From a virus: a stretch of 26,977 nucleotides of DNA. A model generated the notes under the pieces. It was not told the origin of the DNA. It did no database searches and worked only from the letters and a program-made list of their open reading frames with translations. A program made the position numbers and the translations under genes. Shown piece after piece: positions 188 to 23,051 of this stretch. Where the stretch lies: positions 1-26,977 of IMG/VR virus record IMGVR_UViG_3300035034_001047. The stretch is one strand, 5' to 3'. The stretch's first letter is position 1. The number at the start of each line of letters is the position of its first letter.

Positions 188-1357
188 TTAAGCACATTTA
201 CTTGTGCCACACGTTTTACAAATCAAACACGATTCAGCATATTCGATTTGGCAATCATCACCATCGTTAGGACAATCCAATGGATTATCTTTTATTAATT
301 TTTCTGCTCTTGTAGTATCTATATATTTCTTTAATTGTCTTGCAATAGCTTTACTAAACGAAACAATAGATCCTTCTGCTTTTTCTAATTGTTCAACGAC
401 AAAATCTATCTTCGCCCCATGTCGTAATGAAGTAGAGATCAATCTTGTTATAGCAACTTCTTCATCTGTATTTGTTTCAGTAATGTTATCTTCAACTCCA
501 CCATTTACAAAGTTATAGTGTCCTGATTTAATTTTTACCATTTCACCTACATCTTTATGTTTTCCATATTTACCCTTTACAGCAAATACTTCGTATGGGA
601 ATTCATTCATTATACCCACAAATACTGTCCACTGTTCACCCTTTGCTACAGTGTGATAAACATCACAATATAACGATTTAGGTCTTTTAGGTGCATTATT
701 ATGAATAATCTTATCCAGTGAATCTTTTTTGGATTTTGTATTCAGTACACCTGTTCGACATTCATCTCTATATACTGTTATTCCTTTACAACCACTTTTC
801 CAAGCTGTCATATATACATCATTTACTACATCTACTGATATATCTTTTGGTAAGTTTACGGTTACTGATATAGAGTGATCTATATGTTTTTGAACCCGTC
901 CTTGCATTTCTACCTTTTTGACCCAATCTACATCATTTGCGGTTGTACCATGATATGGTGATTTTCTTCTCCACTCATCCGCCTCAACTTTTGTTAAATT
1001 AATAATTTCATCCTCTGATAATCCATTTATTTTTAAAAATAGTTTAAATGTTGGGTGAAATACTGGAAACTCTTGCCAAGAATCTCCCATTTCATCAGTG
1101 TAATCAACTCTTACGTTTGCATCATTTGGATTGACCTTCTTAGAACGGAAATATACAATAGAAAATACGTTTTCAATTCCAGACGATGTTTGTGTCATTA
1201 AGGATGTAGTATTATGTGAAACAATACCATTATCTAATGTATAATAATTAGTATCATCAACTTCAATATCCATTGTATAATCGTTACATTGCTTCTTTTC
1301 TATTATTTTAATTGTGTCATAATTAACATTACTTAAATCTACTGTTTCATTTTCCAT
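188..1357 (-). CDS. nrdJ: Split NrdJ, C-terminal half: C-intein (49 aa) + C-extein of class II ribonucleotide reductase
   Basis: This 389-aa ORF starts with a 49-residue C-intein ending S-H-N (penultimate His48, Asn49), with the usual preceding pattern YTMDIEV...YYTLDNGIVSHN. The +1 extein residue is Thr50. From there TTSLMTQTSSGIENVF continues exactly where the N-half (2578..4401) breaks off at IAPTG; intact class II reductases read IAPTGT-SL at this point. The C-extein is 340 aa and ends in cysteine pairs (SCLICKTCGTSKCA) like the mobile tail that passes electrons from thioredoxin. After trans-splicing the enzyme would be about 830 aa. Its start overlaps the last 11 bases of the endonuclease gene, suggesting translational coupling. 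Function: reduction of ribonucleotides to deoxyribonucleotides with adenosylcobalamin. Confidence 0.9.
   Translation of the reverse strand: MENETVDLSNVNYDTIKIIEKKQCNDYTMDIEVDDTNYYTLDNGIVSHNTTSLMTQTSSGIENVFSIVYFRSKKVNPNDANVRVDYTDEMGDSWQEFPVFHPTFKLFLKINGLSEDEIINLTKVEADEWRRKSPYHGTTANDVDWVKKVEMQGRVQKHIDHSISVTVNLPKDISVDVVNDVYMTAWKSGCKGITVYRDECRTGVLNTKSKKDSLDKIIHNNAPKRPKSLYCDVYHTVAKGEQWTVFVGIMNEFPYEVFAVKGKYGKHKDVGEMVKIKSGHYNFVNGGVEDNITETNTDEEVAITRLISTSLRHGAKIDFVVEQLEKAEGSIVSFSKAIARQLKKYIDTTRAEKLIKDNPLDCPNDGDDCQIEYAESCLICKTCGTSKCA
1211..1357 (-). other. Split intein C-fragment (NrdJ)
   Basis: Residues 1-49 of the downstream NrdJ ORF. Intein C-terminal blocks are visible: D-I-E-V near residue 30 (block F region) and terminal V-S-H-N (block G). 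It pairs with the 117-aa N-fragment at 2581..2931. Size and position correspond to a canonical split at the site where homing endonucleases sit in contiguous inteins. Confidence 0.88.
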
Positions 1358-2504
1358 CTTTAATAATTTTTTTAATTTTACTCACTGTTTCATTAATGAC
1401 TTTTTGTTTATCATTATTATAATCACTTTCCCAAACTATAACTACATTGCATCCAAAGTGTTTTTTTAATATAGAAATACGATTTTTATCATTCTTTTGT
1501 ATTTTTTTTGATTCTTCATCTATATATTCATTCGGATTTCGATGCCAATAATCACCATAGAATTCAACTACTACATTGATATTTTTTATATATAAATCTG
1601 GTGAAATTATTGTATAATCGTCTTCGTGTATATAAAATTTATATTCATTATCACCATAATAGATTTTGTCATATATATCATTAAATTCATATGTTATTAG
1701 TTCAGCAAATTCAAGTCCGATATTTGAATATAAATTGGTAAATGAATTAACTTTATCAATTAATAATTGTTTGTATTTATTTTCACCTGCAATTTTACCA
1801 TATCTTTCAATATAATATTCAATAGTTTGTGAATATGATAGTCGTTCACAATATTTATTATACTTTTCAATACCTATGGGTTCACCATATCTTCGTATAA
1901 AATTATCAAGAGAATTTGATTTAGATAAATTTGTTTCTTGATATTTTTTCTTACCATCTTCTTTACCGTATTTTTCAATAAATTTAGATAATGTTGATGT
2001 TGACTGTCTATTAAATAATTTCTTCTTCGCTTTAGATAAATCGCCATCACATTGGTCAATCCAATATTCAATTGTAGTATTATATGATTTTTTATTACGG
2101 CTTTTATGTCCGCGGATTGATGCAATAGAGCATTTTCGTTTAAATTCTTCATATTTTTTCAACCCATCAACTTTGCCATGCCTTCTTATAAAGTTTTCCT
2201 TAGTTCCAGCTGTTTTTTTATTCTTTTCATTATACTTTTTCGTACCCAATTGTTTACCATGTCTATTTATAAATCCATTCAAAGTAGGGTCTCGTTTTTT
2301 ATCTACTTCTTTCTTTTTTTCATTATAAAGTTTAGTTCCTTCTACTTTTCCATATTTATAAATATATTTTTCAAGTGAAAATGATCGTAAAAAAGACCAA
2401 TATTCATTTATAATTTCTTGAGTTTCACCATCATATTTTTCTACAAGTTCTTTCCACTTTTTAGGATATGAAATTGTTTTAGGTTTCTTTTTTTGTTTAG
2501 ACAT
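1347..2504 (-). CDS. Free-standing Vsr-like (EDxHD-type) homing endonuclease between the nrdJ halves
   Basis: The frame is open back to a GTG at 2537, but the ATG at 2504 (MSKQKKKPKT) is the better start, giving 385 aa. The C-terminal third holds a Vsr/PD-(D/E)xK-like nuclease core: SPDLYIKN, then VVVEFYGDYWHRNP, then VVIVWESDYNN. The N-terminal two thirds carry at least six copies of [FY]-I-x-[RK]-[HY]-G-x3-G-x2-[KL]-Y, at residues 58, 89, 116, 186, 213 and 242 counted from the GTG; a weaker one lies near 158. These are probably tandem DNA-binding modules. The gene sits exactly between the split-intein halves, the arrangement described as fractured genes in environmental phage data. It presumably cuts intein-free nrdJ alleles to spread the cassette. 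The fold is judged from motifs only. Confidence 0.85.
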   Translation of the reverse strand: MSKQKKKPKTISYPKKWKELVEKYDGETQEIINEYWSFLRSFSLEKYIYKYGKVEGTKLYNEKKKEVDKKRDPTLNGFINRHGKQLGTKKYNEKNKKTAGTKENFIRRHGKVDGLKKYEEFKRKCSIASIRGHKSRNKKSYNTTIEYWIDQCDGDLSKAKKKLFNRQSTSTLSKFIEKYGKEDGKKKYQETNLSKSNSLDNFIRRYGEPIGIEKYNKYCERLSYSQTIEYYIERYGKIAGENKYKQLLIDKVNSFTNLYSNIGLEFAELITYEFNDIYDKIYYGDNEYKFYIHEDDYTIISPDLYIKNINVVVEFYGDYWHRNPNEYIDEESKKIQKNDKNRISILKKHFGCNVVIVWESDYNNDKQKVINETVSKIKKIIKDGK

Positions 2505-2536
2505 AATATTGATTTTATTTAATATATTAACAACCA

Positions 2537-2556
2537 CTCCTGTATAAGTATAGGAG
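2537..2556 (-). promoter_or_regulatory. Dyad centred on a TATACTTATA promoter-like motif, upstream of the endonuclease
   Basis: On the minus strand this reads CTCCTATACTTATACAGGAG. The arms (2549-2556 and 2537-2544) form an 8-bp stem with one G-U pair and a 4-nt loop. The decamer TATACTTATA (2543-2552), shared with upstream regions of sheath and tube, lies at its centre, 39 bases before the endonuclease ATG. A late promoter would start RNA near the 3' arm, so the hairpin would form only in read-through RNA from the nrdJ N-half. It could alternatively act as a weak terminator. Confidence 0.45.
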
Positions 2557-2577
2557 TAATAGTTAAAACGTTAAAAA

Positions 2578-4401
2578 TTATTCAATTAATTTCACAATTT
2601 CATCACCTTCTTTCAATTCATCAACAGTTTTCCATTTTGCAATATTATTCTCATAATCTATAATAACTAAAAACTTATGTATTTTTGATGTTGATACAGT
2701 AGAATCATCTGAAAATAAAAGTTTATAACCATCTGTCATACCATTCCAATATAATTTAGTTATTTTATGTTCATTGCCATTTATATCATATACATTAAAA
2801 TCATCCATTATATTAAACCATTCATTTTTCATATTCTTTAGATCATCAATAAGAATACCATTTTCTTTAAATAAATTTTCTAATGTTAATACACCTTTAT
2901 CTGTTTTAATTTTAGTATCTTTGTCTAAACAACCAGTCGGGGCTATCGTAGATATTGCTATATTTCGTCTTCCCGATCTTTGTAGCCTGTTCCATAATTC
3001 TTCATTTTCACTTTTCAATCGTAATAAAAACGGATTATTAATTTCTCTTTCTGGATCCCAAATTGGGAAGCATCCACGTTCTTCTGCCATAATAATAGAT
3101 GATTCATATTCTTTATGTTTTTTTCGTTTCATTAATTCATCTACAAAATCATTACCACTATCTGAACCATATCGTATTCCTAGACCTGCCAACATATCAC
3201 CAAGTGCAGTAATACCAAATCCAGTACGTCTACCTCTTTCCGCCTTATCCTTAATCGTTTTCCATAAGTTTAATTCAACGAACTTTATTTCATCAGGTTC
3301 TTCATCATTTTCTATTTTATGAATAATTTTATTAACAGATTCCAATTCTAAATCAACGATATTATCCATTAAACGTTGTCCCAATCTCACTTGTCTATCA
3401 AATTCATTCCAATCAAAATACGCATCTTCAGTGAATGGATGAATCACAAATGACCATAAATTTAATGCAAGTAACCGGCAAGAATCTCCGTTGCAGAGGA
3501 CGATTTCTCCACAAGGATTTGTTGAAACCGATTTGTATCCTAAATCTGCATAACAATCTGGAAGGGATTCTCTAATAATCGTATCCCAAAACATAAGTCC
3601 AGGCTCTGCACGCGCATGGGCGTTCTTTACAGTAGTATCCCAAATTTCTTGTGGATTCACTACCTTAGTAACTTGAGCTTCTTCTATTGGTTTATCAGTT
3701 GGCCAATATAATGTAAATTCAGTATCGCCCCGATCTACTGCTTCCAAAAATGTATCATATTGTCTTATGGATATATTTGCACCAGTAACTTTAGTTTCAT
3801 CCATTTTAATATCTATAAACTTTTCAACATCTGGATGTAGTCCACTAATTGTCAACATTAGCGCCCCGCGTCTTCCTGATTGAGCTACTTCACGAGTAGT
3901 ATTTGAGTATCGCTCCATAAAGGATACTGCCCCAGTTGAAGTTCTTGCTGCATTATTGACGGGAGTATGTTCAGGGCGAAGATGTGATAAATCAGTACCA
4001 ACACCTGCCCTTCGTTTCATTAGATGTGTCAACTGTTCATCGGTTCTCATAATACCACCATATGAGTCTGAAGGATTATGAACGACAAAACAATTGGATA
4101 AACTCATTATTTGATATGAGTTCCCTATACCTGCCATTGGCGATCCTTGAGGGATCAAATATTTAAAATCCTTTAATGAATTATAAATTTCTTCATAGGG
4201 AGTAGGATTTGGATAATTTAATTCTATTCTATACAACTCACTTGCGAGTCGTTTATGCATATCATCAGGTGTAGCTTCATATAAATTACCTTCATTATCT
4301 TTTAATGCGTATTTATCTAAAAAAACACTAGCTTCTAAGTTTGAGCCATTAAAATATTCTTCGGATAGGTGTAACGCTTTTTCATAATCAATTTTTTTCA
4401 T
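2578..4401 (-). CDS. nrdJ: Split NrdJ, N-terminal half: class II ribonucleotide reductase N-extein + 117-aa N-intein
   Basis: A 607-aa ORF. Residues 1-490 are the catalytic barrel of an adenosylcobalamin-dependent reductase. Visible marks: LSNCFVV (Cys104) and SCRLLALNL (Cys308) as the redox pair, STNPCGE with Asn295-Cys297-Glu299 as the radical/catalytic triad, and GRRGALMLTI plus KVTGANISI typical of NrdJ. At Cys491, right after IAPTG, the intein begins: CLDKDTKIKTDKG (block A) and STSKIHKFLV (block B, His about 85 of the intein), ending after 117 residues. The rest of the enzyme is at 188..1210. The insertion is in the conserved APTG-T loop, not at the NPC active-site loop, which is intact. 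A TATACTTATA-like element lies about 34 bases upstream, preceded by a terminator for the previous gene. Confidence 0.92.
   Translation of the reverse strand: MKKIDYEKALHLSEEYFNGSNLEASVFLDKYALKDNEGNLYEATPDDMHKRLASELYRIELNYPNPTPYEEIYNSLKDFKYLIPQGSPMAGIGNSYQIMSLSNCFVVHNPSDSYGGIMRTDEQLTHLMKRRAGVGTDLSHLRPEHTPVNNAARTSTGAVSFMERYSNTTREVAQSGRRGALMLTISGLHPDVEKFIDIKMDETKVTGANISIRQYDTFLEAVDRGDTEFTLYWPTDKPIEEAQVTKVVNPQEIWDTTVKNAHARAEPGLMFWDTIIRESLPDCYADLGYKSVSTNPCGEIVLCNGDSCRLLALNLWSFVIHPFTEDAYFDWNEFDRQVRLGQRLMDNIVDLELESVNKIIHKIENDEEPDEIKFVELNLWKTIKDKAERGRRTGFGITALGDMLAGLGIRYGSDSGNDFVDELMKRKKHKEYESSIIMAEERGCFPIWDPEREINNPFLLRLKSENEELWNRLQRSGRRNIAISTIAPTGCLDKDTKIKTDKGVLTLENLFKENGILIDDLKNMKNEWFNIMDDFNVYDINGNEHKITKLYWNGMTDGYKLLFSDDSTVSTSKIHKFLVIIDYENNIAKWKTVDELKEGDEIVKLIE
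2581..2931 (-). other. Split intein N-fragment (NrdJ), 117 aa
   Basis: Begins with nucleophile Cys1 immediately after IAPTG and contains blocks A and B, so it is a canonical N-half. It ends with a stop at 2578, before the endonuclease gene. Its partner is at 1211..1357. Combined intein length is 166 aa, typical of a mini-intein without an internal endonuclease. Confidence 0.88.
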
Positions 4402-17254: not shown

Positions 17255-18603
17255 TAATTTACTGGTTCAAATGAATAAAGTTGTTCTTCTACATCTTGTC
17301 TATTTTCAATAAATGTGTATGAAATAGAAACATCAATAATTTTAGGTAATATCCAATCTTTTCCTGCTGATTTAAGTTTTGGAGAATCTTGTAACTGTGA
17401 ATGTATAGTATCATCGAACCCTGTATCCCAGCCGCCCTCATCTACCATTGTATATGATAATGAACTAATAAATCCATATTTCTCTTTATACATACCACCT
17501 ATTGTTAGTTTAGTAATCGGGGGAGTAACCACTCCTGCTGCACCATTATATTTTAATGGATATACTAATTTAGCAAGTTTATCTAATTTCTCCCATATTT
17601 TTTTATGAGTATCTGGATTTGTACTATACATTTTTAAACTAAATCCAACATTTCGTTCTATTCCCTCATACATAAATTGTGAAAATGGAGAACCTACCAT
17701 TTTGGATGATGCCCAATTTGGTGTAAACGTTTCACTAATACCTGAGATTACAACTAATGGGAACCATAATGGCTCTTGCCCATCTACTTCTATTTTTACT
17801 TTCACCGCCTCGGTTGCGTACTCATTGTTTTCTTCAAATATATTTCGGATTTTTACATCTTTACCTATTACTTTATATCCTGCGCTATTTTCGTAATAAT
17901 CAATATTTTCTTCATTTAATTCAGTTGAAGGTTTTCTATCTATATTATATCCTATTGAGAATGGATTAAATCCCAGTGCACCATCTTCTACTGACATACT
18001 TAATATGTCCATTCTTTGTTGAATAACTAATTCACTATACGGTTTTTCATCAGTGGTACGAATGGAGCCATCCCTTGCAGTTGTTTCTAATCCATCAGCG
18101 GTTCCACGTGTTCCAAATAAAATACTTCTTGCTTTATCCTTTGCCTTTCCAACTGCAATTCCAACTGCTTGTGTTCCTATTTGTTTTGGTGTTCCACCAC
18201 CTGCTTGAGCTAAAAAATTGCCCAGCACTGTTCCACCATCTCCGCCAACAGATTCAACTGTTACGGGTTTATCAGAACGGAAGCCATCTACTTTATCCTT
18301 GATTCTTGTTGGGATAAGAGTTGTTGGAATTCCAAGTTTCGATTTTATAAACTTTGTGGCAGAATCTATTTGCCCACCTATCAACCCATCTGTACCTTCT
18401 CCGCCTGTTGAATTTTTCATATCACGAACAGATGAAGTAGATTGTTTTGTAATTCTTATTGTTTCACTTCCATATAAAAGTGGAAAGTTTTTATAAAATG
18501 TTGTACGTAGCCCAGAAGTTTCTTGTTCTAACCGAACTGAACCTTTATCTCTTTCTATATTATGTACCGAACTTAAAAATAAGTCCTTCATTGTTTTAGC
18601 CAT
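17254..18603 (-). CDS. Putative baseplate / tail-tube cap protein
   Basis: 449 aa. The N-terminal half is Gly/Ser/Lys-rich and partly disordered. The C-terminal half is beta-rich, with PLWFPLVVISGISETFTPNW, then ERNVGFSLKMYS and TKLTIGGMYKEKYGFISSL. It closes PKIIDVSISYTFIE, a strand pattern typical of tube-fold tail proteins that cap the tube at the baseplate. It directly follows the tape measure gene (1-base overlap), where gp48/gp54-type proteins or distal-tail proteins usually lie. Assignment rests on position and strand pattern, not on a firm family match. Confidence 0.6.
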   Translation of the reverse strand: MAKTMKDLFLSSVHNIERDKGSVRLEQETSGLRTTFYKNFPLLYGSETIRITKQSTSSVRDMKNSTGGEGTDGLIGGQIDSATKFIKSKLGIPTTLIPTRIKDKVDGFRSDKPVTVESVGGDGGTVLGNFLAQAGGGTPKQIGTQAVGIAVGKAKDKARSILFGTRGTADGLETTARDGSIRTTDEKPYSELVIQQRMDILSMSVEDGALGFNPFSIGYNIDRKPSTELNEENIDYYENSAGYKVIGKDVKIRNIFEENNEYATEAVKVKIEVDGQEPLWFPLVVISGISETFTPNWASSKMVGSPFSQFMYEGIERNVGFSLKMYSTNPDTHKKIWEKLDKLAKLVYPLKYNGAAGVVTPPITKLTIGGMYKEKYGFISSLSYTMVDEGGWDTGFDDTIHSQLQDSPKLKSAGKDWILPKIIDVSISYTFIENRQDVEEQLYSFEPVN

Positions 18604-21137
18604 TATAATAATCCATAAGAATTTTCTGTAGAACGATTTATAGATGCCGCAACACCTTTAGATACTTTTTCTCTATCTAAGTATACTGATATCTTACCCG
18701 CTTTTAAATCCGATCTCAATGATTTCATTTCAATAATAAGTGAATCCAATCTTGAATTAGTTTCAGTGAAATCGACAGATGTATCAATATCATTAATTTC
18801 ATTAGATGTATTCTTTGTATTCGATTGTTCATTTACAGTTTCAGTTCTACTACCTAATATTTTAGTTGCTATACCACCGATAGCACCGATTGCGGATAAT
18901 GTAGGTAATGCGATCAAACCTGCCCCTGCTACAGCGGTTAGAGCACCTGCTAATCCAAATAACGCAACTGATAATAAACTAATTGGTGGGATGTACATTA
19001 ATAATGAACCTATCACAGAACCTGCTAATGTTAATTGTGGTATTAGTGAAGATATTCCGCTACTTAACATTTCAAAACCACTTCCCATTGCCTGTAACGC
19101 ATTTCCTAAAATTAATACAGAAGTTGCTATAACTAATAACGCACCAGCACCTGCTAAAATTGCAACTGCCCCAACACCACTACTCATTAAAGCCCCTAAT
19201 AAAGACACGGCACCTACTAACGCCAACATAGATACTACTGCCTTACCTACATCTCCCCATTTCACTTCCATAAATTCTTGTACTGCCTTTCCAAATACAA
19301 ATAATGCACTTGCAACAATTAATAATGCTGCTGCTCCTGCTAACATTGAAGTTGGATTTAATTTTCCAACCCCTCGTGCAGTTCCTAAATTATCACCCTT
19401 ACCACCTGTTTTGTTTGATATAGTAGATAATGCGGCTTGTCGTTTTTCAACCAATAATCGTTTCTGTGCAAATGATAATTCCTTTCCAGCAAAAAACGCT
19501 TTAAGTTTCATCCAAACTAATGATGCCTTTCGTTTAGCGGCAATTAACGCCTCCCATTTAAATATATTCTGTAAACCACCACTCATTTGACCTAATGCAA
19601 CAAGCCCACTACCCAATGCACTTAAAAATGGACCACTTATCTTATTAGTTAATCCTGTTGCCAATTCGTTTAATGAACTGAATTGTCTTTGGAAAAATGT
19701 AGTTTCTGTATTTGCGGTTTCAAGTTGAGTTGCCATTCTCTGTAATTCAACAACTGAAACTCCTATTAAGTCTGCGGATGCCTTTCGTTGATAATAATTC
19801 ATTTGTTCAAATGCGTTTATACCACCTAATTGATGTAATACTTCTTTAGTAGCCCCTTCCAAATCATTTTGGAACGCCAATCCTCTGGCTCTTTCTAAAT
19901 TAATATTCCTACCTAACAATGAAGATAATTCTAATTCCTTTGTAATCGAACTTTCAAAATCCAACAGATTATCAGCTATACCTACCATTGTAGATAATTC
20001 AGTTCCTAATTGTCTTGCAAATACAGCGGCAGATGCTAAGTTTTTTCCGCCATCTTTTCCAAACAATGCAAATGCTTCAGTATTATTTGCCAAGTCGGAC
20101 ATTACCTGTGAAGGAATTACTCCTCTTTGTTTTGCAAATTCTTTTGTTGAAGTAATTAAATCCTCTGCTATATTCTTAGACCCATTATTTAATCTTGCAA
20201 ACGAACCTACTAATGTTGCTGCTTCTTTACCACTTATTCCTAAATTTAATGCAAGTAAATTAGTATTTAATTGAGTACCAAGTGATGCCGATTCAGTATT
20301 TCCAAATTGATTTGCTAATTCAGTAGCCGTTCCAGTCGCATCATCAAATACGGTACTCATTAAAGCTGTTCGTCTAGCTATTCCATCTGTTGATGATAGA
20401 GTTAACCCAAACTCAGAATTCATTTCTCCTATTTTACCAACTACTTGCCCCAACCCGATTGTTAAGAACCCAATACCAGCACTTGCATTAGAAAGCATTA
20501 AACTAGCTGTATCTAATACGCCGCCTATTGATTTTTTAATTCCATCGTAAACTGCAATTTGCGCATCTAATTGTTCTTTTTGGTTTTCTGTTAAATGAGC
20601 GTACTCATTAGCCAAAGAATTAGTAACTCGTAATGATTCAACTTGTTTTTTAAGATTTGGATATCTATCTATTGAACCTATTTTTTTTATATTACCTAAC
20701 TCCGATTCAAACTCCCTGTTTAATAATTCCTTCTGTGTAATATCAGACGATGTTAGATTAGCTATCTGTTCGTTTATCTCTTGTGAACGTTCTAAAATAT
20801 TAAGATTATGTTCACTTTGAATGGCTGAAGAATGTAACGATTGAATTCTTCTTTTTTCAATTTCTTGGATAGGAAGATATATACCAGTTAATGATTTTAA
20901 TCCTTGTTCTTGGTCACTGATTGATTGGAGAACGTCGGTACTTACCTTCGTACGGGATTGTTGAATCTGAATATTGATGTTTTTTAATTTAGTGGCTAAT
21001 GTTATCCGTTTTGTATTCAGTTCATTAACTTTTTTAGTATCTCTTATTTCTTGGGCATCAGATGCAGCAATATCCCTCTTTAATTTTTCAATCTCTTTTA
21101 ATATCTTAAGTCGTTCTTTATTTAAATCTTCAGCCAC
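18603..21137 (-). CDS. Tail tape measure protein
   Basis: 844 aa. Residues 1-60 are a charged coiled coil, followed by long helical Gln/Glu/Lys-rich segments. A hydrophobic patch lies at 205-235, and clustered Ala/Gly/Leu membrane-like helices at about 598-617, 632-680 and 703-760. The C-terminus ends GKISVYLDREKVSKGVAASI, common in tape measures. It sets tail length and is ejected with DNA. At about 0.15 nm per residue it predicts a tail near 125 nm. The start is GTG: an in-frame TGA lies 3 codons upstream and no early ATG exists. It follows the chaperone-like pair and a 72-aa gene, the standard order. Confidence 0.9.
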   Translation of the reverse strand: MAEDLNKERLKILKEIEKLKRDIAASDAQEIRDTKKVNELNTKRITLATKLKNINIQIQQSRTKVSTDVLQSISDQEQGLKSLTGIYLPIQEIEKRRIQSLHSSAIQSEHNLNILERSQEINEQIANLTSSDITQKELLNREFESELGNIKKIGSIDRYPNLKKQVESLRVTNSLANEYAHLTENQKEQLDAQIAVYDGIKKSIGGVLDTASLMLSNASAGIGFLTIGLGQVVGKIGEMNSEFGLTLSSTDGIARRTALMSTVFDDATGTATELANQFGNTESASLGTQLNTNLLALNLGISGKEAATLVGSFARLNNGSKNIAEDLITSTKEFAKQRGVIPSQVMSDLANNTEAFALFGKDGGKNLASAAVFARQLGTELSTMVGIADNLLDFESSITKELELSSLLGRNINLERARGLAFQNDLEGATKEVLHQLGGINAFEQMNYYQRKASADLIGVSVVELQRMATQLETANTETTFFQRQFSSLNELATGLTNKISGPFLSALGSGLVALGQMSGGLQNIFKWEALIAAKRKASLVWMKLKAFFAGKELSFAQKRLLVEKRQAALSTISNKTGGKGDNLGTARGVGKLNPTSMLAGAAALLIVASALFVFGKAVQEFMEVKWGDVGKAVVSMLALVGAVSLLGALMSSGVGAVAILAGAGALLVIATSVLILGNALQAMGSGFEMLSSGISSLIPQLTLAGSVIGSLLMYIPPISLLSVALFGLAGALTAVAGAGLIALPTLSAIGAIGGIATKILGSRTETVNEQSNTKNTSNEINDIDTSVDFTETNSRLDSLIIEMKSLRSDLKAGKISVYLDREKVSKGVAASINRSTENSYGLL

Positions 21138-21147
21138 AGTTCAAAAA

Positions 21148-21366
21148 TTATAATTTTGCTTTAGGTATCTTTGATAGAATTCGATCCAATTCTTCTTTTT
21201 CCCTTTTGATCTTTTCCATTTGTTTTATAGCTTCATCATCCATCTTAGCCTTTTTAGCTTTGGCAAGAAGTGAATCCACCGCGTTTGCCTTTAACCCATC
21301 GAAAAATGCATCGGAAAACTTTTTAGCGGCGCCGAAGATCTCATTCACTGGTTGTTTTTGTTTCAT
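21148..21366 (-). CDS. Small helical protein before the tape measure gene, 72 aa
   Basis: Starts MKQKQPVNEIFGAAKKFSDAFF and is almost entirely charged amphipathic helix, ending in a coiled-coil-like EAIKQMEKIKREKEELDRIL. It lies 10 bases upstream of the tape measure GTG. Its size, helical nature and position would suit a tape-measure-associated or assembly factor, but no family is recognised. A short AT-only hairpin (TTATAGTT with AACTATAA, 21383-21402) lies just upstream of its leader. Composition matches its neighbours. Confidence 0.7.
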   Translation of the reverse strand: MKQKQPVNEIFGAAKKFSDAFFDGLKANAVDSLLAKAKKAKMDDEAIKQMEKIKREKEELDRILSKIPKAKL

Positions 21367-21430: not shown

Positions 21431-21670
21431 TTACCTACGAATATTTACTTTTGAATTTTGATTGGTGGTTTTCTTCACCTCTGCCTCTTCTTCTTTTTTC
21501 AATTTAACCAACTTATTATAGTAAAAGTTTCTCCATTTGGTAGGCATAGTATATACATCTGTAAATGTGAAGCCGTTACCAAATTGAATAAGTTGCCACA
21601 TTTCAGTGTGTAACTTATAAGAATGGTTACTCGGAAGGGTAAAAAAAGTCGATCCCGAACGGGATATCAA
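21431..21670 (-). CDS. Tail assembly chaperone extension (gp51-like), probably made by frameshift
   Basis: 79 codons open in the +1 frame relative to the upstream gp26-like gene, overlapping its last 44 bases. The frame opens at TTG, with no ATG and no ribosome site in the overlap; the first ATG is at codon 24. The protein has MWQLIQFGNGFTFTDVYTMP and KWRNFYYNKLVKLKKEEE, an aromatic module that I associate with the small hub-assembly proteins of T4-like phages. The overlap contains seven T (21641-21647), which permit a +1 or -2 shift. A shift there gives a fusion of about 319-320 aa, the lambda G/GT style arrangement. Independent translation from codon 24 is the alternative. Confidence 0.65.
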   Translation of the reverse strand: MISRSGSTFFTLPSNHSYKLHTEMWQLIQFGNGFTFTDVYTMPTKWRNFYYNKLVKLKKEEEAEVKKTTNQNSKVNIRR

Positions 21671-22391
21671 GAGCCTCCATCTCGCCTGTTATATCAGATT
21701 CAAATTGGAATTTTAACTCTAAATCTGGACTAATAGAATTTACATAATTTCGTAATGCTTTACTATCTTGTGAAACTAAATTCTCAGCCAACTCATTTAT
21801 TGTTTTTCTTTCTTCTTTTCCATCTACTGATACAATCATATGGCGTAAACGGGTAGTAACTTCTTTAGAACCTGCGTTTTTAGTAAGACGTGCAAGTGCT
21901 TGTAAATCTTTATTAATTTCAAGTTCATCACCGTGAGTTAATAACTTAAATTCAATATCTTTTTGTGTTTTTTCTAAAGTAAATTTATATCGGTTTTCTC
22001 TATTTAATACTGATTCATCTACTTCTTTTACTTTTACTTGAGATAAATCAATAGTTACATTTTGCCTTTCCAACGAAAATGGATCTGTAACTTCTGCGTT
22101 ATATTCGTTACCATAACCCAATATTCTTGTAGCTATTAGTATGGCGTTTTTATCTCCAATGATAATATCGTTTATATCTATATCATCAATTATAATAGAT
22201 TCAAATAATTTATCCAATACAACACCTTTCTTTATTAAATTTTGAGAAGCTAATATATCTTCTTCTTTAGCTGTCATATACTTAATAGTAATTTGACCAG
22301 ATGAAAGAGGGGAATCTTCTGGATAAACTAATCCTTTTGATGGGAGGTCAATAACTTCTGTTGGAAACTTGTGTTCTTTTTTTGTACTCAT
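21627..22391 (-). CDS. gp26-like protein, probable tail assembly chaperone
   Basis: 254 aa. The opening FPTEVIDLPSKGLVYPEDSP, then ITIKYMTAKEEDIL and KKGVVLDKLFES, is the conserved start of T4 gp26-type proteins, annotated as baseplate hub but absent from mature hub structures as far as I recall. It lies between tail tube and tape measure, exactly where tail assembly chaperone G is found in other tailed phages, and is followed by an overlapping out-of-frame extension. It would bind the tape measure protein during tail assembly. It ends FGIDFFYPSE just after a run of seven T. No strong Shine-Dalgarno; a terminator separates it from the tube gene. Confidence 0.75.
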   Translation of the reverse strand: MSTKKEHKFPTEVIDLPSKGLVYPEDSPLSSGQITIKYMTAKEEDILASQNLIKKGVVLDKLFESIIIDDIDINDIIIGDKNAILIATRILGYGNEYNAEVTDPFSLERQNVTIDLSQVKVKEVDESVLNRENRYKFTLEKTQKDIEFKLLTHGDELEINKDLQALARLTKNAGSKEVTTRLRHMIVSVDGKEERKTINELAENLVSQDSKALRNYVNSISPDLELKFQFESDITGEMEALDIPFGIDFFYPSE

Positions 22392-22562: not shown

Positions 22563-23051
22563 TCAATATTCCAAAATTGCGTAATCGTAGGCTAAAGTCA
22601 CAGTTATTTCTACTTTTTCAGATGATTCATATGTTAAATCACCGAAATTTGCTTCTGTAATAAATGCACCTTTTACTGTCCACTCTTCTACCTTATCCGT
22701 AACTGGTCCTAAAAGATAGAAATTCAAATCTTTTTTGTAAAAATCAGCGTACCCTTCTCTACCTGTAATAGCTTCGTGAGATAATCGTACCCACTCCATT
22801 ACTGCTTGTGCTCCAGATGGAACCAATGGGTCATGTAGTGTAATTGAAATATCATTCCAAGTAGTTTTTCCTTTAATTTTACGTTGTACGTTGATATGAT
22901 CTATAGTTACAACATCAGAAGAAATAGTTGGTCTACTCATTGCTTTAATCATATATGATGGTATCCCGTCTACTTCCATAATGAACCTGTTTTGCATCTT
23001 TGGTTCAAAATTGGTATAGAAAGCTTGATCGTATTCTAAAATTTCTGCCAT
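22563..23051 (-). CDS. Tail tube protein (T4 gp19-like)
   Basis: 162 aa, the same size as T4 gp19 (163). NRFIMEVDGIPSYMIKAMSRP, then ISITLHDPLVPSGAQAVMEW and the closing VEITVTLAYDYAILEY are characteristic of the gp19 tube family. Polymerised hexamers form the inner tube through which DNA passes. It has an AAAGGAA Shine-Dalgarno, a TATACTTATA promoter-like element 44 bases upstream and an intrinsic terminator downstream, so it can be expressed as a strong single-gene late unit, as suits a high-copy protein. Confidence 0.92.
   Translation of the reverse strand: MAEILEYDQAFYTNFEPKMQNRFIMEVDGIPSYMIKAMSRPTISSDVVTIDHINVQRKIKGKTTWNDISITLHDPLVPSGAQAVMEWVRLSHEAITGREGYADFYKKDLNFYLLGPVTDKVEEWTVKGAFITEANFGDLTYESSEKVEITVTLAYDYAILEY

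Follow-up and report, generated by a model that had tools for sequence, protein, structure and literature searches.

Short and long versions of a protein made from one RNA are a trick known in many tailed phages, and in the virus considered here the trick would run in the direction opposite to that of T4's closer relatives. In a 2022 study by Vladimirov, Gautam and Davidson, frameshifting was reportedly conserved in several T4-like groups, and T4 is said to use genes 26 and 51. The passages citing this study attribute to it T4-like phages with a short gene and a fused long gene (PMC10885494) and -1 signals of the poly-T type in the TAC-N genes of such phages (PMC12846349). That the hub assembly chaperones gp26 and gp51 are the chaperone pair of T4 was already published in 2022, and the general kind of system is therefore known; the sequence-only reading of our locus knew of no shift for gp26/gp51-type genes. 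The literature searched, in which the 2022 study is represented by passages citing it, yielded no description of the +1 direction in the present clade. According to a 2016 review, which predates the identification of the T4-like chaperone genes, the G-T frameshift is near-universal in long-tailed phages and T4 is the exception (PMC5009743).

Several described systems share individual features with the locus. In lambda (gpG/gpGT) and P2 (E/E+E') the position between tail tube and tape measure genes is as here and the short and long products of a frameshift near the 3' end are as predicted here, but the shift is -1 and no sequence similarity to our locus is detectable. The UUU_Y sites of YopN-TyeA and influenza A PA-X have a pyrimidine next, no adjacent stop codon and no obvious stimulator, also as here, but they lie in different genes, whereas in the present locus UUU_Y would make a tail chaperone (PMC5009743). 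In bacteria, UUU_Ynn is reported as particularly liable to +1 shifting, also where no stop codon is present, and several shifts of phages and viruses take place with no stimulator, a lack that is common among phage shifts (PMC5009743). The tail chaperone of the archaeal myovirus HSTV-2 is reported as very likely +1 (PMC5009743) and is likened to ours by description only.

The locus lies on the minus strand of a 26,977-base virus fragment, the whole of which is called the window below. ORF A (21627..22391; 254 aa, ATG start) encodes a gp26-type, TAC-N protein, the putative short zero-frame product. Frame analysis and a profile match place the gp51-like, TAC-C domain B in an open +1 frame (21431..21688, stop codon at 21431-21433) whose first 62 nt overlap ORF A. 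In the ORF listing this frame appears as 79 aa from TTG at 21670, and the overlap in the window contains no ATG, just as had been claimed for a 254-aa ORF overlapping a 79-codon one. The tail tube gene gp19 is the upstream neighbour (22563..23051, minus strand; PF06841, E 8.2e-10; phrog_4542, E 4.7e-30). Downstream, past a listed 72-aa ORF (21148..21366, minus strand) for which searches against Pfam and PHROG profiles gave no significant match, is a probable tape measure gene (18603..21137, minus strand; 844 aa, GTG start), so designated by position and by a match to phrog_4372 (E 3.1e-4). The gene order is thus tube - A - B - tape measure with one small ORF between the last two; the neighbours are those named by the sequence-only reading, and the pair sits between tail tube and tape measure as in lambda G/GT-type systems. 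Elsewhere in the window, an NrdJ-type ribonucleotide reductase large subunit is split at one point into two parts (2578-4401 and 188-1357, minus strand). The first part ends in a region resembling an intein N-terminus from Cys491 (TIGR01445, E 0.0012, below cut-off), an intein C-terminal region opens the second part (TIGR01443, above cut-off), and an ORF for a Vsr-like endonuclease lies between the two parts (1347-2537); judged by these matches, 188-4401 is a fractured gene with a split intein.

The protein encoded by ORF A belongs to the gp26 family, matching PF12322 (T4_baseplate) above the curated cut-off of 24.5 over most of its length (26.5 bits, E 6.3e-6, residues 29-230) and phrog_150 (baseplate hub) over residues 5-250 (E 1.8e-12). 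In agreement with this assignment, a profile built from the A family matches T4 gp26. Proteins A and B were folded separately, AlphaFold2 being used for A. The A model (pLDDT 94) is most similar to other models of phage baseplate-hub/gp26 proteins (SP-15, TM 0.84). Among PDB structures VIA-align ranks the HK97 tail assembly chaperone 2ob9 highest, a weak match (Z 4.7, rmsd 5.3, 94 aligned residues) that is suggestive only; at the sequence level, searching the PDB with a profile of A returned nothing relevant. Domain B is modelled as three helices (pLDDT 82), for which VIA-align against the PDB gave no informative match, the best (Z 4.4) being a homeodomain chain. Window B has no direct match to phrog_634, and its direct comparison with T4 gp51 is weak; the B profile built in this work from five seeds and iterated matches it together with the B proteins of KVP40 and P-SSM2, which belong to phrog_634 (E 3e-20 and 6e-28, respectively).

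Phage records and IMG/VR were searched for relatives, giving 404 loci with an A homologue, in which 341 distinct junctions were left once duplicates were removed; a scan of genome contigs found no relatives. The homologues come from metagenomes and from phages of Flavobacterium, Microcystis, Bacillus (SP-15), Listeria (LIS04), Streptococcus (GXN1) and Rhodothermus (RM378). Domain B is in the +1 frame relative to A in 231 junctions, in the -1 frame in 98 and in frame 0 in none. It was undetected in 12; in eight of these a TTT_Y site is present with an open +1 frame after it, and most of the eight contain sequence that is recognisably like B. The window junction recurs in two independent metagenome contigs (L001 and L002), and together with the same +1 layout in 231 distinct junctions this argues that the arrangement is not a chance one. 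Over the stretch between the slip codon described below and a point 150 nt beyond the stop of A, 226 of 227 relatives have an open +1 frame, and the other alternative frame is open in 10.

A frame-0 TTT codon followed by T or C lies in the overlap of 227 of the 231 +1 junctions; the conserved UUU with its pyrimidine neighbour corresponds to the +1 UUU_Y sites, for which no stop codon is needed. The most frequent context is TTT TTT TGG (137 cases), followed by NNN TTT CTT TGG (about 29), TTT TTT TAC (25, the type found in the window) and TTC TTT TGG (12); TTY TTT CGN is also among the common contexts. A run of seven T at 21641-21647 with slippage into ACC CTT CCG had been proposed for the window. 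The run is present (GAC TTT TTT TAC in frame 0), and the candidate slippery tetranucleotide TTT_T within it consists of the P-site Phe codon 21644-21642 and T 21641 (21641..21644, minus strand). The B part read after the shift is predicted to comprise 69 codons and the stop (21431..21640, minus strand). In agreement with the expected length of about 319-320 aa, a +1 shift would join A(1-250) to these 69 residues in a 319-aa fusion with the junction ...GIDFF-TLPSNHSYK, and a -2 shift would give 320 aa.

The two directions proposed earlier, +1 and -2, fared differently. A Mu-like -2 shift on the T7 run would reach the same frame, and re-pairing of tRNA-Phe two bases back is possible in the window, where TT precedes the slip codon, as it does in 175 of the 227 relatives. 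In the remaining 52, all with B in the same frame, such re-pairing is impossible (TTC TTT, ACC TTT CTT, etc.), whereas +1 slippage of the P-site tRNA-Phe fits all 227; +1 is favoured for this reason, UUU_Y is moreover known as a +1 site (PMC5009743), and a -2 shift was rejected as the general mechanism and is most improbable. Slippage of RNA polymerase on T7, by which part of the mRNA would carry the B frame joined to A, is similarly doubtful in the extreme. The T-run has length 7 in the window and in 163 of the 227, but consists of just three or four T in 51 relatives of the same arrangement, including one close to the window (L036, TTC TTT TAC), and transcriptional slippage was rejected as the general mechanism on these grounds. 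The conserved unit is the codon TTT_Y and not the length of the run, TTT_T (21644-21641) and not the whole T7 being the essential element in the window.

Conservation of the slip codon extends to its third base. The synonymous codon TTC is found at this position in none of the +1 relatives; elsewhere in A it makes up 573 of 2,419 Phe codons (24%). Codon changes were counted on a tree of 179 sequences built with the C-terminus left out: third-base changes number 0 at the slip codon in these sequences, which were chosen for TTT there, although no +1 relative with TTC existed to exclude, as against two at the preceding Phe codon and 14-31 at each of eight further conserved Phe codons. Ahead of the site, variation falls at third positions of the A frame, and from the site onward it follows the +1 frame, so that selection moves from frame 0 to +1 immediately 3' of the TTT codon. 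In particular, position +9 past the slip codon may be A, C, G or T, with 37 changes counted on the tree. In the +1 frame this is the wobble position of a Leu codon, and the Leu is retained in 178 of 179 sequences; in frame 0 its variation freely alters the residue (D, S, G, T or E). This pattern indicates that the +1 frame is translated from at most two codons past TTT, before A's stop.

Selection in the +1 frame sets in right after TTT and ahead of the stop of A, which also bears on the alternative without a fusion product, in which B would be a small gene of its own, read by reinitiation at ATG 21601 or TTG 21670. The first B-frame ATG of the window (21599..21601, minus strand) is 26 nt past A's stop codon and could give a free, partly truncated B, but it lies inside the conserved core and would yield 56 aa lacking the start of that core. 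Between the upstream stop and eight codons into the core, 149 of the 231 +1 relatives have no ATG in the B frame and 66 have no ATG, GTG or TTG; after the site, 181 lack all three. In the 66, B is not a separate gene, barring a rarer start codon; separate translation was rejected as the general mechanism and is very unlikely. A start codon for the second part is present in T4, KVP40 and most cyanophages and in loci L397 and L009, the last with an ATG overlapping A's stop. Relatives with their own ATG had been named in advance as evidence against a fusion, and such were found in T4, L397, L009 and most cyanophages; the claim nevertheless survives, since these relatives have no +1 site or belong to the -1 group. 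An overlap in another frame, a dispensable start codon and a conserved slippery site are further features shared with lambda G/GT-type pairs.

Locus L397 (IMGVR_UViG_3300001528_000621) is nested in the clade of the immuto-like phages and has lost the slip codon (TCA TTC TTG), and for its domain B it has a separate ATG, in a different frame; inside the +1 clade it is a natural case of a lost slip site and a gained ATG for B. The four +1 relatives without TTT_Y (L120, L123, L125 and L126) form a small subclade sharing AAT CCC AGT, in which CCC_A may serve as a +1 site.

In about 30 immuto-like relatives TTT CTT TGG offers two candidate slip codons, TTT_C and CTT_T. Five relatives carry TTT CTA, in which the second codon cannot re-pair, and TTT_C is therefore favoured. 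The predicted junction peptide of the immuto fusion, FFPEDGPDGGVDIPIGVSF[F/L]GLTPEYR, would distinguish the two, Phe corresponding to a slip on TTT_C and Leu to one on CTT_T.

Neither a stimulatory structure, up- or downstream of the site, nor a shared SD-like element near it was found in the relatives, which suggests that the efficiency of the shift may be low. Mean folding z-scores up- and downstream are -0.35 and -0.63, respectively, compared with -0.28 and -0.58 at random in-gene positions. In the window, a 5-bp hairpin, ATCCCGTTCGGGAT followed by CGACTTTTTT, was flagged at 21665-21652 (minus strand), just upstream of the T-run, and the two could be taken for an intrinsic terminator inside A, with the overlap incidental. 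However, one terminator-like match is at chance level (0.7 expected), no upstream structure is conserved among the relatives, and a terminator would leave the +1-frame selection unexplained; the terminator reading was rejected as resting on a chance-level, non-conserved match and is scarcely credible.

Comparative evidence for a programmed +1 shift joining the gp26- and gp51-like domains is thus strong, which bears out the proposal that the two chaperone-like proteins are joined by a programmed frameshift. Judged from sequence comparison, the locus very probably gives rise to two forms of a tail assembly chaperone by programmed +1 P-site slippage on UUU_Y. Most ribosomes would read A to its own stop, producing the 254-aa short form (TAC-N), comparable to lambda gpG and T4 gp26. 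In a minority, the P-site tRNA-Phe, paired with UUU (21644-21642), would slip one base forward and re-pair with the overlapping UUU (UUC in relatives), and these ribosomes would continue with ACC CTT CCG in the +1 frame, producing the 319-aa long form (TAC-NC), comparable to gpGT and T4 gp51 and made up of residues 1-250 of A followed by the 69-residue helical domain B. We infer the occurrence and frequency of the shift, and the P-site tRNA as the slipping part. By position, family and analogy, the products would be tail assembly chaperones, the short one G-like and the long one GT-like, which presumably cover the tape measure protein and bring in subunits of the tube.

The tree of A proteins is divided, with branch support of 100/99, into a -1 side that includes T4 gp26 and gp51 and a side that is mainly +1. 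The latter comprises phages of Flavobacterium, Microcystis, Bacillus, Listeria and Streptococcus and hundreds of uncultured ones, the exceptions being Atu_ph07 (L016, -1 type), L009 and L397; the former comprises cyanophages and KVP40-like phages. Phages of the -1 group (P-SSM2, S-SM2, KVP40, Aeromonas CC2/Ah1, Cronobacter S13 and Cr30) have homologous A and B and a site on the matching Phe-Phe codons near the C-terminus of A, but their B is in the -1 frame with the canonical heptamer T TTT TTC/T, present in 95 of the 98 junctions of the -1 side. The X XXY YYZ pattern of -1 sites does not describe the window and its clade, where B is +1. In most cyanophages an ATG for B also follows closely on the stop of A, at +5, and CC2, S13 and Melnitz-3 have no start codon for B ahead of the matched core.

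The A protein of the window belongs to the family of T4 gp26 (PF12322, phrog_150), but in T4 the short and long forms come from two opposite-strand genes, while the window has one locus and a probable frameshift. In T4, matches to PF12322 cover most of gp26 and most of gp51; beyond this, gp51 carries a C-terminal region that falls in phrog_634, to which the free B proteins of KVP40 and P-SSM2 belong. The short and the long form thus have a gene each in T4, genes 26 and 51 being paralogues on opposite strands (L137, 7803-9229). It is quite probable that the direction of the shift switched at the same Phe-Phe pair within one family (+1 on UUU_Y, -1 on U_UUU_UUC/U), and that T4 turned to gene duplication and lineages such as L397 to a new start codon. 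Set against its sister clade, with a -1 heptamer at the corresponding Phe-Phe codons, the +1 clade seems to be a new variant.

For published genomes, namely immuto, SP-15, LIS04, GXN1, CC2 and S13, this means that the long chaperone form is unannotated or truncated in its C-terminal part. The annotations of immuto and SP-15 contain just a 3' fragment of domain B (4213-4458 of L005, which is immuto 3-5A), and those of LIS04, GXN1, CC2 and S13 contain no B gene. Beyond what was already described, the comparison brings in a large clade whose predicted shift runs the other way at the matching codons, as well as natural cases in which the shift is replaced by an own ATG or by gene duplication, and the family is thus a usable system for how shift direction and product ratio evolve.
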